NCBI GenBank assembly: GCA_003168375.1 | Contig: PMSI01000001.1 | Coordinates: forward strand, 1,240,001 to 1,304,000 | Source of the DNA: Vulcanimicrobiota bacterium | GTDB lineage: Bacteria; Vulcanimicrobiota; Vulcanimicrobiia; Vulcanimicrobiales; Vulcanimicrobiaceae | Direction: 5' to 3' | Length of the DNA stretch: 64,000 bases | In this document: piece by piece, positions 36,562-47,988 of the stretch | How the letters are laid out: every line of letters starts with the position of its first letter | How positions within the stretch are numbered: the stretch's first letter is position 1 | The notes under the pieces: model-generated | Seen by the model: only the letters and a program-made list of their open reading frames with translations | What the model was told of the DNA's origin: nothing | Database searches by the model: none | Program-made: the position numbers and the translations under genes

Positions 36562-37481
36562 AAGTCGCGGTCGTCATGGGCGGTCCCAGCGCGGAGCGCG
36601 AGGTCTCGATCGAGAGCGGGACGTGTGTGATGCGCGCGCTCGCGACGCTCGGCCACGACGCGAAATCGCTCGACTTCGACGAACGGTTCATCGACGCGCT
36701 GCGCGAGATCGCGCCCGACGTGGTGTTCAACGCGCTGCACGGCCGCGGCGGCGAAGACGGCACGATCCAAGGCGTGCTCGAGTGGATGGGGATCCCGTAC
36801 ACCGGCAGCGGCGTCGCCGCATGCGCGATCTCGATGGACAAACACCTGACGAAGAAGCTCCTCGCCGCCGAAGGCCTCCCCACGCCGGCCTGGGACGTCT
36901 TCGACCTCACCGGTGGCACGCTGCCGCTGCTCCCCGGTTCACTGGAATTGCCGCTGGTCGCAAAACCGCGCGCAAGCGGTTCGAGCGCCGGTGTCGCGAT
37001 CGTGAAAACGCACGAAGCCTGGACCAAAGCGATGATCGACGCCAGCTCGCGCACGCCGGAGATCCTGGCGGAAGAGTTCGTCCCGGGGCGAGAGTTCTCG
37101 TGCGGCGTGCTGGGTGAAGAAGCGCTGCCAGTGGTGGAGATCGTTTCGACAGACGAGTTCTACAGCTACGACGCGAAGTACAAACCGGGTGGGTCTCGGC
37201 ATCTGATTCCGGCGCCGATCGATCACGACCTCACCGCGCGGCTGCAGACGCTGGCGTTATCGGTGCATCGGTTGATTGGGTTGCGGGATTATTCGCGCAC
37301 GGATTTCATCGTAACCGACCACGGACGACCGACGATTCTTGAAGTGAACGCGCTGCCGGGAATGACCCCGCAGAGTCTGCTTCCGGATGAAGCGCAGCAC
37401 GCGGGAATCTCATACGAAGCGCTCGTGGAACGACTGCTTCAATATGCTCTCGCGCGGCTGAATCAAATTTCCGTCAGCTAG
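36558..37481 (+). CDS. ddl: D-alanine--D-alanine ligase
   Basis: Ddl makes the D-Ala-D-Ala used by MurF. The 307-residue ATP-grasp protein starts with TTG 36558, then VAVVMGGPSAEREVSIESG. It also contains 'HGRGGEDGTIQGVLEWMGIPYTGSG', 'AKPRASGSSAGVAIVK', 'EEFVPGREFSCGVLG', 'YSYDAKY' and the metal-binding 'EVNALPGMTPQSLLP'. The YDAKY loop with Tyr is normal for D-Ala (not D-lactate) specificity. It is the last dcw gene here; ftsQ, ftsA and ftsZ do not follow. Confidence 0.96.
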   Translation: MKVAVVMGGPSAEREVSIESGTCVMRALATLGHDAKSLDFDERFIDALREIAPDVVFNALHGRGGEDGTIQGVLEWMGIPYTGSGVAACAISMDKHLTKKLLAAEGLPTPAWDVFDLTGGTLPLLPGSLELPLVAKPRASGSSAGVAIVKTHEAWTKAMIDASSRTPEILAEEFVPGREFSCGVLGEEALPVVEIVSTDEFYSYDAKYKPGGSRHLIPAPIDHDLTARLQTLALSVHRLIGLRDYSRTDFIVTDHGRPTILEVNALPGMTPQSLLPDEAQHAGISYEALVERLLQYALARLNQISVS

Positions 37482-37637: not shown

Positions 37638-37655
37638 GTGCCACCCAGGTGGCAC
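37638..37655. promoter_or_regulatory. Inverted repeat GTGCCACC-CA-GGTGGCAC upstream of the TIGR02391 gene
   Basis: A perfect 8-base-arm palindrome lies about 70 bases before the first gene of the restriction-modification-like group. The octamer GGTGGCAC recurs in a second palindrome before the methyltransferase gene. Controller proteins of RM systems bind such paired boxes. The rest of 37482-37727 shows no gene. Confidence 0.45.
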
Positions 37656-37727
37656 ACCACGGGCCTATGGTGTGGTCGTGAAGCGTGTCCCGGCGCCTTG
37701 TTATTTCGCAGCCGCGAGGTATTCCAC

Positions 37728-38549
37728 ATGATTCCGCAATTCAATGACGCATCTCTGGACGCGCTCTCGCGAACACTTGGTGAGGCCTTGGTGGGATCCG
37801 ACATGACCCGGATGTTCCGCGCATGCCACGTCACCGACACTAGCGGAGAGAGCACCAAGTGGAAGCGCATCTACCACACTTTCGCGGGGCGACAGCGCGA
37901 GGATCGCTGCGCGAACGCCTTGGGAGCGTTCATCGAGACAGCACTGGCGCCGGCGCGGTGGTCCGGGCGTCGTGACGAGTATGCGCAAGTTCGCGATGCA
38001 CTGAACGAGACGCTGCTGCTCTCCGGAATCGAGCTCGGCGCTGACGGCAAGCTGCGCCTTGTGAAGGCCGCGACGAACTTGGACGAATCTTCCGAGCGCG
38101 CGAACCGGTTGAGCGCGAAGCTGAAGCAGCGTTCAGTGCATCCAAGTGTGTTGAAGTTCTCGCAACGCTTACTGATTCGCGACGGCAACTACTTTCACGC
38201 CGTGTTCGAAGCAACGAAAGGTGTCATGGACCGCTTGCGCACCCTTTCAGGGTCTTGCGCGGACGGGAACGCCCTGATCGACGAGACGCTCGAGTGCGGC
38301 AGGCGCCCATTTCCAATCGTCGCCTTGAGCCGATACGACACCCCGTCACTCCAAAATGAGCAAAAGGGTATCGCCCACATGGCGCGCGGATTGGTTCATG
38401 CATTCCGGAACGTCACGGCGCATGAGCCACAGGTCGAGTGGAACATCTCAGAGGCGGACGCGCTGGACATGATGTCGACAGCGTCGCTCATCCATCGAAG
38501 GCTTGACGCAGCGGTTGTTACCACCGCTTATCAACCAGTAGCCGTGTAA
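37728..38549 (+). CDS. TIGR02391 (Ymh) family protein with HEPN-like motif
   Basis: This 273-residue protein starts at ATG 37728 behind GAGG. The C-terminal half matches TIGR02391: 'NYFHAVFEATKGVMDRLRTLSG', 'DGNALIDETL', 'NEQKGIAHMARGLVHAFRNVTAHEP' and 'ASLIHRRLDAA'. The segment FRNVTAH is an R-x4-H motif of the HEPN type, so an RNase role is possible. The N-terminal 130 residues are unfamiliar. Members of the family occur beside restriction and defence genes, and this one heads such a group. Function is not established. Confidence 0.72.
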   Translation: MIPQFNDASLDALSRTLGEALVGSDMTRMFRACHVTDTSGESTKWKRIYHTFAGRQREDRCANALGAFIETALAPARWSGRRDEYAQVRDALNETLLLSGIELGADGKLRLVKAATNLDESSERANRLSAKLKQRSVHPSVLKFSQRLLIRDGNYFHAVFEATKGVMDRLRTLSGSCADGNALIDETLECGRRPFPIVALSRYDTPSLQNEQKGIAHMARGLVHAFRNVTAHEPQVEWNISEADALDMMSTASLIHRRLDAAVVTTAYQPVAV

Positions 38550-38586
38550 GGCCGTTTTCGGACCGACAGATGGCGTAAGTCGGCAT

Positions 38587-38602
38587 GGTGCCCGGTGGCA
38601 CC
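38587..38602. promoter_or_regulatory. Inverted repeat GGTGCC-CGGT-GGCACC before the methyltransferase gene
   Basis: A perfect 6-base-arm palindrome shares the octamer GGTGGCAC with the palindrome at 37638. It lies in the 260-base gap before the methyltransferase start, which otherwise holds no gene. Confidence 0.45.
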
Positions 38603-38810
38603 ACGTGCTCCTGTCGCTGTTCTCCCCGCTATGCCCAGATAGCTGACAAAGCGTAGGAATCGGGGTTTAGCACGGCGACCTAGTCGATCCGAAAAACTTC
38701 GTGCCAACGCCCGTTTGCCCACAAGATATTGTGGACTGCCCGTGGAAGCCTGTGGACAATTCACGGGGACCGGGTTCCCTTGTGCGGAGGAGACCACCAT
38801 CGCCCTCGTC

Positions 38811-39839
38811 ATGCCGGTGCGCCGGGTCACGCCCGTGCGGCCCAACCGCCCCGGGATCGTTGAATTCGATCCCGCGCTCGCGATCGCGGACAACTCGTCC
38901 GTGGCGCTTGCACACCTTCGCGCGGTAAACGCGAAGTACCGTCGCCGAATCTGGCCTGAGCCTTTCGACCGGACTACTCATCGCTTGCGGATCGGCGACG
39001 CTCGTGACCTCTCGTGGTTGCCTGACGCGTCGGTACACCTCGTTGTCACGTCACCGCCTTACTTCACGCTCAAGGAATACGCGAAGCGCGATGGCCAAAT
39101 GGGCGAGATCGCCGACTATGAGACATTTCTCTCCGAGCTCGACAGAGTTTGGAAAGAGTGCGCGCGAGTTCTTGTTCCCGGGGGGCGTATCTGCTGCGTC
39201 GTCGGCGACGTATGCGTTCCTCGTAAGAAGGGTGGTCGGCACTACGTCCTGCCGCTGCACGCAGACATCCAGGTCCGGGCGCGCAGTACGGGGCTGGACT
39301 GCCTCACCCCGATCCTTTGGACGAAGATCGCCAACGGCGCGAACGAGGCGGAAGGGAATGGGGCCGGTTTCTACGGTAAGCCCTACCAGCCGGGGGCCGT
39401 CGTGAAGAACGATGTCGAGTACATCCTTTTCCTGCGCAAGGGCGGCGAATATCGCAAACCCGATCCCACGCAGAAGATGCTATCGATGATGAACAGAGCC
39501 GAAATGCGCAAATGGCTCCATTCGCGTTGGGCAGACGTACCTGGAGCGTCGACGCGAACCGGCCACCCCGCGCCCTTCCCGCAGGAAATCGCGCAGCGTC
39601 TTATCCGCTTGTTTTCGTTCGCGGGCGACATCGTCCTCGATCCATTCGTCGGGACCGGCTCGACGATGGTCGCGGCGATCGAGACCGGCCGGAACTCCAT
39701 CGGGGTCGATATCGAGCCGATGTACGCGGAGTTTGCCGCGAAACGGATCGGGAAAGCGGTGGCCGCGGTACGGGACCATACCTGCGGCGCCAACAAGCCC
39801 GAGATTGTCGCTCTGGAGGGGGATCGAGAGTCGGCCTGA
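38811..39839 (+). CDS. Site-specific DNA methyltransferase, beta class (N4-cytosine or N6-adenine)
   Basis: The protein transfers a methyl group from SAM to an exocyclic amino group in a specific DNA site. The catalytic motif IV (VVTSPPYF, near residue 80) precedes the SAM-binding motif I (DPFVGTGSTMVAA, near residue 277), the circularly permuted beta-class order. The S-P-P-Y form favours N4-cytosine but is also found in N6-adenine enzymes. A target-recognition region lies between them. ATG 38811 is the likely start (342 residues), although the frame is open to TTG 38715. The gene is followed by a candidate nuclease gene after 19 bases. Confidence 0.88.
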   Translation: MPVRRVTPVRPNRPGIVEFDPALAIADNSSVALAHLRAVNAKYRRRIWPEPFDRTTHRLRIGDARDLSWLPDASVHLVVTSPPYFTLKEYAKRDGQMGEIADYETFLSELDRVWKECARVLVPGGRICCVVGDVCVPRKKGGRHYVLPLHADIQVRARSTGLDCLTPILWTKIANGANEAEGNGAGFYGKPYQPGAVVKNDVEYILFLRKGGEYRKPDPTQKMLSMMNRAEMRKWLHSRWADVPGASTRTGHPAPFPQEIAQRLIRLFSFAGDIVLDPFVGTGSTMVAAIETGRNSIGVDIEPMYAEFAAKRIGKAVAAVRDHTCGANKPEIVALEGDRESA

Positions 39840-39858
39840 TCCAACGTCGAGTAACATA

Positions 39859-40602
39859 GTGGCCGTCGCCCAGGACTTTCGACTCCTTTCTGCCTTTGAA
39901 GCCCTTTATTCCCGGCATCCGTATGTTCATCGTGCCTCCACGCACGGCGACAACATGGCGACCGAACTCTTCGAAGATCTTTTCGTTCGTTCGATGGCGC
40001 GCGATCCGGCATCACGATTCGTCGTAAGGGTGAATGACGCCACGCGTGTCGTCGACCGCCGGAACAAGAGCTACAATGTGTCGGCTCGCCGGGGTGACGG
40101 CCTTCTTGGTGAGGTCATGCATGGTGCGCCTACGGCGTCGCTTCCAGGCTTCGCAGTGAAGCGCGGCCCAACGGTAGCAACCGAAATCGGCGTCGAGATG
40201 AAGATCGTTGCGAAGGCGATGCTCAAGCAGATCGGCCGAGTATGCACGGACTTGAATAATCAAAAGAACGAATTCGCCGCGCACACCGGCTCGCGTCCTC
40301 CGATATCGGTCGCGATTGTTGCAGTCAACTTTGCACCGATCTACTGTGGCCTCGAGAAGAAGCGTAAATACATCACTGACGGTAAGACGTACCGTCATCC
40401 GATCCAAGAGGCGGCGGAGGCGAAGCGGCGCCTGGAAACCTTCGTGAAGCCAAACTACGACTTCTTCATCATGCTGGAGTACAGCGCTACGAACATGAAG
40501 CCATATCCCTTCTCATGGGTCAATCCGACGGGACAGGTCGCCGACTACAATGCTGAACTTTCACGGCTGGCGGTAGAGTATGAAGCACGATTCGGAAAGT
40601 AA
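39859..40602 (+). CDS. Candidate restriction endonuclease partner
   Basis: This 247-residue protein lies directly after the methyltransferase gene. It is not similar to a family I recognise. Residues 109-125 (TEIGVEMKIVAKAMLKQ) have an acidic/lysine pattern (E...E.K, then K...KQ) compatible with a PD-(D/E)xK nuclease core, preceded by a variable acidic region. It later has 'PISVAIVAVNFAPIY' as a central strand. Position between a methyltransferase and a small HTH protein is the main reason for proposing an endonuclease. GTG 39859 is used; ATG 39955 would shorten it by 32 residues. Confidence 0.5.
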   Translation: MAVAQDFRLLSAFEALYSRHPYVHRASTHGDNMATELFEDLFVRSMARDPASRFVVRVNDATRVVDRRNKSYNVSARRGDGLLGEVMHGAPTASLPGFAVKRGPTVATEIGVEMKIVAKAMLKQIGRVCTDLNNQKNEFAAHTGSRPPISVAIVAVNFAPIYCGLEKKRKYITDGKTYRHPIQEAAEAKRRLETFVKPNYDFFIMLEYSATNMKPYPFSWVNPTGQVADYNAELSRLAVEYEARFGK

Positions 40603-40786
40603 CGCTCGGGCCGCAGAGTTCGCTCGCCGGCTGAGACTTACAGGCCTGCGCCTTACGGAGTTTCAGAAAAGATCTGGACTTACGCGCAATGTGATCTACA
40701 ATCTGTCGAAAGGTCAAAAGCCTTCGTCGAGCGAGCAGGCAGCGCACTTAGAGAGAGCATTTGCCGAGCTCGAAAACAAATCGTAG
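40580..40786 (+). CDS. Small HTH protein, possible RM controller
   Basis: This 68-residue protein has a lambda-repressor-like helix-turn-helix: FARRLRLTGLRLTEFQKRSGLTRNVIYNLSKGQKP, with the second helix around 'RNVIYNLSKG'. Its size is like C proteins that time restriction-modification expression. The start overlaps the end of the candidate nuclease gene by 23 bases, so the two are coupled. The palindromes at 37638 and 38587 are candidate binding sites. (The LSKG here is ordinary sequence, not the window's repeat.). Confidence 0.7.
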   Translation: MKHDSESNARAAEFARRLRLTGLRLTEFQKRSGLTRNVIYNLSKGQKPSSSEQAAHLERAFAELENKS

Positions 40787-40959: not shown

Positions 40960-42009
40960 GTGGAAATTCGCCAGACCCCCATGACTATTGCCGACTACTG
41001 CGTGGCCTTAGAACGCGGTGACATAGAAGTAAATAGAACTTATCAACGAAGTGACAATGTGTGGCCCTCCCAAGCGCGCTCGTTCTTGATTGAGACCATT
41101 TGTTCTGGCTATCCAATCCCGAAGTTCATCTTGAATCAAAAGATAGACTTTCGAACGAAGAACCCTATTAAAGAAATCGTCGATGGACAGCAACGGTCGA
41201 AAACGATAGCTGACTTCTACAACAACAAACTTCGTCTGTCTCGTACGCTTAAGGAGAAGCACCTTGCTGGCAAGGTGTACGACGAGTTACCGGAGGACAT
41301 GCAGGCTGTCTTCCTCAACTTCTCGTTGGACATTGATCTCTTTGTTGGCGCGACATTTGCCGACGTTGTGGAGGCCTTTAGACGCCTTAACAGCTACACG
41401 TTCCCGGTAAATGCACCAGAAAAACGTCACGCGCGGTATCAACGCGGCATCAAATGGTTTATCTTTTACTTCTGCCGCCAATATGAGGAGTATTTCCGGC
41501 GCTCTGAAACCTTCAGTGAGAAGAGCGTCGTGCGCATGCTCGATACGACACTAGTTGCAGAGGTATGGCACGCACTTGAAAACGGAATTCGAACTACGAA
41601 GTCTGCCGACTTGGACGCGCTCTACAAGAAGCATGACGTAGAGCCATTTGGTAGTGAGCCGATCATTGGTCTGTTAACAGAGGCGTTCGACACGCTGCAG
41701 GGTTGGAGTGACCTCTATGGTACTGCGTTGAGTAAGCCCTATATGATATACGGCCTGTCCCTCGCTATTGTTCATGTTCGACACAAGATCGAGACCCTGG
41801 AGCCCGCTTTTCCGCTGGCGGTGCCGGCAAAAATCGACCCCGTTCTTGCAATACGAAACCTCACGACGCTTGCGACGGCGTTTGAATCAAAGGACCTTAG
41901 CGGGCCATATAAGAGCTTCATTGACGCGAGCACTGAGAAGACCAATGTTGATACACAGCGTATCCAGCGCTTCCGCTGGTTCTGCGAGGCTTTGACGAGC
42001 GAGATTTAA
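40960..42009 (+). CDS. DUF262 (ParB/GmrSD-like) protein
   Basis: This 349-residue protein (GTG 40960) has an N-terminal DUF262 domain: 'IADYCVALERGDIEVNRTYQRSDNVW', then 'IKEIVDGQQRSKTIADFY' with the DGQQR motif used for nucleotide hydrolysis or nicking in ParB-like and GmrS proteins. The C-terminal 200 residues are helical. Codon use is visibly more AT-rich than in the dcw genes. It is followed after three bases by a HEPN-like gene. DUF262 proteins act in defence (GmrSD, BrxU, SspE); the substrate here is unknown. Confidence 0.8.
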   Translation: MEIRQTPMTIADYCVALERGDIEVNRTYQRSDNVWPSQARSFLIETICSGYPIPKFILNQKIDFRTKNPIKEIVDGQQRSKTIADFYNNKLRLSRTLKEKHLAGKVYDELPEDMQAVFLNFSLDIDLFVGATFADVVEAFRRLNSYTFPVNAPEKRHARYQRGIKWFIFYFCRQYEEYFRRSETFSEKSVVRMLDTTLVAEVWHALENGIRTTKSADLDALYKKHDVEPFGSEPIIGLLTEAFDTLQGWSDLYGTALSKPYMIYGLSLAIVHVRHKIETLEPAFPLAVPAKIDPVLAIRNLTTLATAFESKDLSGPYKSFIDASTEKTNVDTQRIQRFRWFCEALTSEI

Positions 42010-42012
42010 GCA

Positions 42013-42672
42013 TTGCGGCGGGTTAAGGCACTAAGAACGCTGAGGTTGATGGCGTTTTCCCGTCTCGATAAGGCTGAGAGCCTCGTATTCCCGACGGCCC
42101 GTCCCCCATTCCGTTTCCAGAAGGCAGCAATTAGTTACTGCATCATTGATCTCGTCGACTTATGGGGCGCCTTCATTCGCGCACTGTACGTGTCAAGCGC
42201 CCTGGGTGCGACAATCGGAAAGAGTCGTAAAATCGGTTGCGCCCGACCGTTCACATTGGCGATTGATGCCTTCACGTTTTCGGCCGCTTGGAAGTTTAGC
42301 CGGAGTGCCGCTGGCCGCCGTGCCGGCGCCGTCACGCCGCCGTACAGCCGAGAAGCAGAGCCGGCATGGCATCACTCGAACAACGTCGCAAATCTGGCAG
42401 TCACGCTCGCGCTTACGAACCAACCGTCGATCTCAGCCGGGCTTGCAAGAGCTGGCTCGACGCCTGATGACCTTATTGCATTCCGAAACTTCTTTGCGCA
42501 CCGCAACGAGGAGACGAGGGCGATCGCGGCAACACGCCTCTATCGGTACGCGATAACACCAAGGGCCACACTAGAAGAGTCGCTGTACGCTCACGTTCCT
42601 GGTTATGCGGTGACGTTGATTGAACTGTGGTTCGGTGACCTTCGTGATGCGATCGATCGTCTGACTCGCTGA
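42013..42672 (+). CDS. HEPN-like protein paired with DUF262
   Basis: This 219-residue helical protein has the motif LIAFRNFFAHRNEET at about residues 154-168, an R-x4-H signature of HEPN ribonucleases, flanked by helices. TTG 42013 starts three bases after the DUF262 stop, so the two form a unit. HEPN proteins in defence islands cut RNA on activation. I do not recognise the N-terminal part. The unit is closed by a terminator at 42734. Confidence 0.65.
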   Translation: MRRVKALRTLRLMAFSRLDKAESLVFPTARPPFRFQKAAISYCIIDLVDLWGAFIRALYVSSALGATIGKSRKIGCARPFTLAIDAFTFSAAWKFSRSAAGRRAGAVTPPYSREAEPAWHHSNNVANLAVTLALTNQPSISAGLARAGSTPDDLIAFRNFFAHRNEETRAIAATRLYRYAITPRATLEESLYAHVPGYAVTLIELWFGDLRDAIDRLTR

Positions 42673-47057: not shown

Positions 47058-47357
47058 CTATGCCAGGTCCGAGTCCATGAGGAAGCACAACATTCGATAG
47101 TCGCCGTAAGCGGCGGACTCGATGTACATGCCAGCCTTGCGCAGCAGCGCGATGTCGCGGCGAAACGATCGAACCGACATGCCGAATCGCCGCTGGTAGT
47201 CTGCGATCCGCACGGGATCACGACGCGCCAACAGCGCGGTAAGCCAGATGAGGCGTATGACCCGGAAGGCGACGCCTTCACGCTGGGCATACGGCGGGCG
47301 CGCGTGGTGGCGCGCCGGGGACATCGACGCGGGCGCGTCGAATCGAGCGGTTGTCAT
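47058..47357 (-). CDS. Small DNA-binding protein, DeoR/WYL-type winged-helix only
   Basis: This 99-residue protein starts at ATG 47357. It has a disordered basic start and then a helix-turn-helix: 'VIRLIWLTALLARRDPVRIADYQRRFGMSVRSFRRDIALLRKAGMYIES'. The 'S.R.F.RDI..L..AG' pattern is that of the N-terminal HTH of WYL and DeoR-type regulators. No effector domain follows, so it is either a stand-alone regulator or the remaining end of a larger one. Confidence 0.55.
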   Translation of the reverse strand: MTTARFDAPASMSPARHHARPPYAQREGVAFRVIRLIWLTALLARRDPVRIADYQRRFGMSVRSFRRDIALLRKAGMYIESAAYGDYRMLCFLMDSDLA

Positions 47358-47988
47358 CCGGTGGAGCACTCCATCGGGTGACGGACTCGGTCGGTGTTGC
47401 TGCACCGGCCGAGTCGCCTTGTATTGTCCGCGCGTAGCGCGTGTCATCATTGTAGCATCACGCCATGCAGCGAGCAACATCGTCGCATGATCTTCTGCGA
47501 CGATTACAAGTTAGGTATTGACCTCCGCGCTCGGTTCGTACTTACGTGATGCCATGTCTTGGTTTCACATCGCTTCGTGTCGCTCGGGCGGCGGAACGCC
47601 AGCACCGTGCCCGCGCGATCTCTGGCGTTGACGTCCGTGGAATACCAACGTCAGCGAATTCGCCCCGGGGAGCGCCGCCGCCAACCTCCGCGCCAGCGCG
47701 TCGGCGAGTCCGGCGCGTTCTATCACATCGCATCCGGCAACTCCATGGACGAGTGACCCTTCAAGCCGCAAACGACCCTCGGTTGGGCGCGCAAATCCGG
47801 CGTAGGGACTCAGGCAGTCCGCGATTGCAGGTAGATCGCCTGGCCAATCGCCGCGCCCTAGTGCGCTCGCTCGAAGTGGGACATGCGACCGTCGAAGCCG
47901 ACCGGGTGGGGCCGCGTAGTGTCGACCTCGTAGGCGACATAGCGGCGCGCGGCCGGAAACGCGCTGAAGCAAGAGGAAAGGTCAGGCC
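47358..47988. other. 630-base stretch without a confident gene
   Basis: Open frames on both strands (for example 47565-47972 minus and 47546-47992 plus) lack recognisable motifs. The minus strand near 47860-47960 reads FPAARRYVAYEVDTTRPHP, which is protein-like but has no start or partner. Because a truncated antitoxin domain follows at 47989, the missing N-terminal and partner genes may have decayed here. Confidence 0.4.

Follow-up and report, generated by a model that had tools for sequence, protein, structure and literature searches.

The closest described counterparts of the locus analysed here come from several separate lines. In the controller-protein restriction-modification (R-M) systems, such as PvuII with C.PvuII, a small HTH protein is genetically linked to the R-M genes. 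XhoI is a restriction enzyme that cuts CTCGAG. NucC, BbvCI, NgoMIV, EcoRI, BsaWI, PaqCI and AgeI are PD-(D/E)XK nucleases, although NucC, a second-messenger-activated effector nuclease, falls outside the Type II restriction enzymes. TTHA0409 of Thermus thermophilus HB8 (2zie/2zif/2zig) is a putative beta-class N4-cytosine methyltransferase (PMC5173035). Ymh-family HEPN proteins have been predicted to be RNases, and HEPN genes of the Ymh and MAE_28990 families are known near R-M genes, the MAE_28990 genes in operons with ParB/DUF262 and methylase genes (Anantharaman et al. 2013, PMC3710099). The PD-lambda-3 system of E. coli works by abortive infection (PMC13190303).

The window, i.e. the whole stretch of 64,000 nucleotides of Vulcanimicrobiota DNA that was analysed, contains the four co-directional genes on the + strand reported in the initial annotation, followed by DUF262, possible HEPN and PD-lambda-4_A genes that it did not mention (Table 1). 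We hold it likely that the methyltransferase, a PD-(D/E)XK endonuclease and the HTH protein are encoded by a Type II R-M operon, situated in an island beside independent TIGR02391, DUF262 and PD-lambda-4_A genes. In such a system the methyltransferase would protect a sequence in the host DNA, probably at cytosine N4, the 247-residue endonuclease would cut the same sequence when unmethylated, and the small HTH protein encoded at the end of the operon would tune both enzymes. The system is ordinary in kind; its new parts are an endonuclease family unnamed in Pfam, NCBIfam, PADLOC and PDB, and a conserved regulator.

Table 1. Genes and inverted repeats of the island, with the evidence for each
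Feature	Position in the window	Strand	Evidence
TIGR02391/Ymh HEPN protein (PF09509; PD-lambda-3_B homologue)	37728..38549	+	Pfam, NCBIfam and PADLOC matches
Beta-class DNA methyltransferase, TTHA0409-like	38811..39839	+	PF01555 E 4e-40; 2zie E 3e-97
Predicted PD-(D/E)XK restriction endonuclease, 247 aa	39859..40602	+	conserved residues, AlphaFold2 model, fold comparison
Small HTH protein, 68 aa, likely R-M controller	40580..40786	+	homologues in 7 phylum genomes
DUF262 (GmrSD_N) protein, defence-island neighbour	40960..42009	+	PF03235 E 6e-15; PADLOC matches
Possible HEPN-like protein, candidate DUF262 partner	42049..42672	+	motif R-N-F-F-A-H only
PD-Lambda-4_A homologue, 1271 residues	42942-46757	-	PADLOC 3.6e-81, whole length
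Perfect inverted repeat, 8-base arms, 2-base spacer	37638..37655	.	sequence letters
Perfect inverted repeat, 7-base arms, 4-base spacer	38586..38603	.	sequence letters

Judged by their sequences and their constant association, the methyltransferase and the 247-residue nuclease are probably a Type II restriction-modification pair. A single-sequence scan of genome contigs gave no match, and a three-sequence alignment seeded with the window, genome G045 and a Paraburkholderia terrae plasmid was then the basis of the pair search, which gave 63 further loci in bacterial genomes and one in a viral contig. At 64 of the 66 loci a methyltransferase homologue lies directly upstream of the nuclease gene on the same strand, and in the two exceptions (L036 and L051) the nuclease gene stands at a contig end that is cut before a full methyltransferase. 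The assignment of the group to restriction-modification was right, and so was the recognition of a candidate nuclease in the unrecognised protein, which is the true partner of the methyltransferase.

The pair loci span at least eight phyla. According to the record titles the hosts belong to Acidobacteriota, Pseudomonadota, Chloroflexota, Verrucomicrobiota, Planctomycetota, Nitrospirota, Myxococcales/Deltaproteobacteria, Binataceae and the window's own phylum. Since the nuclease has no family name despite this spread, annotation likely lists its genes as hypothetical, and defence finders likely miss the R-M systems that contain them. No third gene is conserved beside the pair, and the flanks differ between lineages. 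The nuclease frame is broken at about a dozen loci (e.g. L045, L050 and L058-L066), with the methyltransferase mostly intact, which may reflect either decay or assembly error. Inspection by eye placed the pair just downstream of RNR-large-subunit-like genes at L043, L052, L054, L056 and L066 (four Chloroflexi and one Acidobacteria).

The insertion downstream of ddl that carries these genes is a defence island. Homology to genomes of the same genus ends at 37456, where ddl ends, and is found again at 47067-47477 in G007 and G008, the content between these points being different, and the G+C content drops across the island from about 0.70 to 0.50-0.60. Behind the R-M genes, the DUF262 protein matched NsnA (1e-29) and PD-T4-2_A (8e-8) in PADLOC. 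The protein encoded next to it gave no Pfam match, and searches of plasmids and of the 147 other genomes in the phylum yielded no homologue; the PD-Lambda-4_A homologue gave weak ATPase matches only in Pfam.

The downstream HEPN-like protein could be the functional partner of the R-M genes, so that the methyltransferase, the nuclease, the HTH protein, DUF262 and HEPN would form a five-gene module. The order MT-RE-HTH-DUF262-HEPN (MAE_28990) is found in G045 and MT-RE-DUF262-HEPN on the Paraburkholderia plasmid, and the published MAE_28990 operons cited above are of the same sort. However, a DUF262 gene lies near the pair only in these two cases and possibly at L020 and L023, of 66 loci. The DUF262 protein of the window is not close to those of G045 and Paraburkholderia (at best 28.6% over 70 aa), the HEPN-like protein beside it shows no sequence homology, and a gap of 173 bases separates the HTH gene from DUF262. 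We consider the five-gene module unlikely and treat the downstream genes as neighbours of the R-M operon in the island.

At the other end of the group the TIGR02391 gene had been proposed as the head of the R-M system. The family assignment was confirmed, with matches to PF09509 (E 1e-32, 112.8 bits at a cut-off of 25), to NCBIfam (E 5e-27) and to PADLOC PD-Lambda-3_B (209 bits, residues 2-265, full length), and the R-x4-H motif pointed out in the initial annotation reads R-N-V-T-A-H (R227, H232) and is invariant in 15 of 15 relatives. The protein thus resembles the B component of PD-lambda-3 over its full length, but B seems to occur alone here: the A component gave no match in the genome at E 0.01, in a search run without a positive control, and none among the scanned neighbours.

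If the four genes acted as one system, the TIGR02391 protein would be an RNase suicide arm, triggered by failed restriction or by inhibition of the methyltransferase, in the manner of PrrC or RloC. Its gene is adjacent to the R-M genes on the same strand, HEPN genes including those of the Ymh family are known in such neighbourhoods, and PD-lambda-3, the closest tested relative system, is abortive. Against this, TIGR02391 accompanies the pair at 0 of the 66 loci, and fifteen plasmid relatives adjoin Hachiman, Shedu, ABC-three-component (ABC-3C), Abi, RES, type I restriction, PD-lambda-3_A and other genes, none of these relatives standing beside the pair. Moreover, the gap between the TIGR02391 and methyltransferase genes amounts to 261 bases and has an inverted repeat inside, and within the genus the only trace of the gene is a C-terminal fragment in G004, 81% identical, which lies at a site unrelated to this one. 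A suicide arm of this kind therefore seems improbable to us, and the TIGR02391 gene is best read as a single mobile defence gene that came to lie in this island and not as a part of the R-M operon. The expectation that the genes of the group recur together elsewhere holds accordingly for the methyltransferase and the nuclease and fails for TIGR02391. The layout had also been regarded as non-standard, yet a HEPN gene beside R-M genes is an already published pattern (PMC3710099), from which the present case differs in that no conserved linkage ties the HEPN gene at the head to the pair.

Profile searches of the 247-residue protein upheld its unrecognised status: no convincing match was obtained in Pfam, NCBIfam, PADLOC or the PDB sequences, and a Pfam scan of 51 members of the family gave no meaningful match either. 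The members have in common the pattern R-R-G-D ... E-I-G-x-E-x-K, with D80 and E113 present in 51 of 51 and K115 in 49 of 51. The AlphaFold2 model is confident, with a pLDDT of 92.8 and a pTM of 0.90. Foldseek returned weak matches for this model, the best being NucC (E 0.006), and in a structural second look the Z values were 8.8 for NucC, 7.8 for BbvCI, 7.4 for NgoMIV, 6.1 for EcoRI and 5.3 for AgeI; BsaWI and PaqCI likewise came ahead of almost every unrelated entry. Nucleases with a restriction fold make up nearly all of the top of this list, and only they were retained from it; the Rab, G-protein and esterase entries at Z 4-5 were taken as background. Since these Z values are moderate, the fold call rests on their combination with the conserved D, E and K residues and the methyltransferase partner. 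On this basis the protein is predicted to be a restriction endonuclease of the PD-(D/E)XK fold with D80, E113 and K115 as the predicted catalytic residues. That it is instead an accessory nuclease or a NucC-like effector, with the methyltransferase merely its immunity or partner, has in its favour the top rank of NucC in the fold comparison and is hardly probable, because this Z exceeds that of BbvCI by only about 1 and that of NgoMIV by 1.4, its partner is in every case a methyltransferase, and in relatives the same operon slot is filled by the XhoI family.

The methyltransferase was correctly assigned to the beta class in the initial annotation. It belongs to the N6_N4 family, and its motif IV (TSPPY) precedes motif I (DPFVGTGST), both being intact. 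The nearest solved structure is TTHA0409, a member of the same methyltransferase subfamily over 264 residues, and the target is probably N4-cytosine by this relationship, TTHA0409 being itself only a putative N4-cytosine methylase.

Homologues of the methyltransferase within the phylum are found with other nucleases. In G036 (58% identity to the window methyltransferase over 265 aa) the partner is a nuclease of the XhoI family (PF04555 E 4e-65), and in G115 (60% identity) it is an XhoI-family nuclease 50% identical to that of G036. The homologue in G038 is paired with a truncated XhoI-like frame, that in G137 with a different, unclassified nuclease-like protein encoded downstream (L125 995-1717) and bearing an IAIEIK motif, and no recognised nuclease was found beside the homologue in G047. 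The G036 and G115 operons agree with that of the window in the MT-RE-HTH order and in the homology of the methyltransferase and of the HTH protein; the difference lies in the endonuclease, which is of another family by sequence. Membership of the window nuclease in the XhoI family was rejected, as 0 of the 51 members matched PF04555 even at E 0.1, and a comparison with the XhoI profile by hhalign gave a probability of 0.2%, with no sequence relation found. A PF04555 search of the window's own genome, run without a positive control, was empty. As read from the G036 and G115 operons, one endonuclease has replaced another while the methyltransferase and the HTH protein stayed as a conserved scaffold.

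Since similar methyltransferases of the same phylum pair with XhoI-family nucleases, the recognition site of the window nuclease is perhaps CTCGAG-like, and our guess by analogy is CTCGAG or a sequence close to it; the XhoI-family operons in this way predict the cut site directly. CTCGAG is depleted at the host loci under an order-4 model (250 seen against 446 expected, the strongest of 64 palindromes), but under an order-2 model the ratio of 0.82 is ordinary and control DNA is also low (98 of 128). It could further be imagined, though we would back it only tentatively, that the methyltransferase and the HTH protein serve as a reusable chassis on which sequence-unrelated endonucleases are exchanged while one site is kept, the unnamed family having solved an XhoI-type site independently.

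The nuclease and HTH genes share 23 bases where the one ends and the other begins, and a similar overlap exists in G045. The protein matches Pfam HTH_3 weakly (E 0.036), while its G045 relative, 71% identical, scores 1.2e-4. Homologues were found in 7 of 149 genomes of the phylum, and 7 of 7 lie beside a beta-class methyltransferase gene. The HTH gene follows the nuclease gene in the same operon (MT-RE-HTH) in the window, G045, G036 and G115, the nucleases of the first two being of the unnamed family and those of the last two of the XhoI family. It is divergent from the methyltransferase gene in G032 and G021, and in G061 it stands two genes downstream of that gene. That all its homologues adjoin methyltransferase genes is the best evidence for placing the HTH gene in R-M operons, and it makes the earlier suggestion of a controller credible; by this linkage the protein is likely the controller of the R-M genes, and its family could be used to flag further R-M operons. 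In comparison with PvuII and C.PvuII, the HTH gene is here the last in the operon, the family match is weak, and no C-box was found; no shared dyad or operator was detected among seven upstream regions, from six loci, of homologous HTH or methyltransferase genes. In G061 a 760-residue protein (L098 1911-4190), without a Pfam match and GHKL-type-ATPase-like by eye, is encoded between the methyltransferase and the HTH homologue. The coordinates L095 4364-5092 and L116 1776-2549 hold XhoI-family nucleases in MT-RE-HTH operons with the HTH and methyltransferase families of the window.

Two perfect palindromes upstream of the first and second genes had been described as sharing an octamer, as would be expected of operators for a common controller. 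The letters agree with the description: the repeat at 37638-37655 reads GTGCCACC-CA-GGTGGCAC, that at 38586-38603 reads TGGTGCC-CGGT-GGCACCA, and the octamer GGTGGCAC is common to both. The interpretation as a common operator is not supported. The octamer lies one base past the dyad centre in the first repeat and straddles the centre in the second, and with this different offset the two sites are not one palindrome. Its count in the window is near the chance level, 4 against 2.5 expected, one copy lying inside ddl, and by a simple estimate about two common octamers are expected between two regions of 250 bases. Perfect repeats with 8-base arms and spacers of up to 8 bases number 46 in the window, compared with 30-46 in Markov shuffles. 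Neither these octamer counts and palindrome statistics nor the genome counts and the comparison of upstream regions support an operator for a common controller. Each palindrome may be an operator or a hairpin in its own right, an RNA hairpin in the case of 38586-38603, which lies 37 bases past the TIGR02391 stop. The repeat at 37638-37655 is the only exact copy in the genome, and the core of the second, GGTGCC-N4-GGCACC, occurs at one other genome site.
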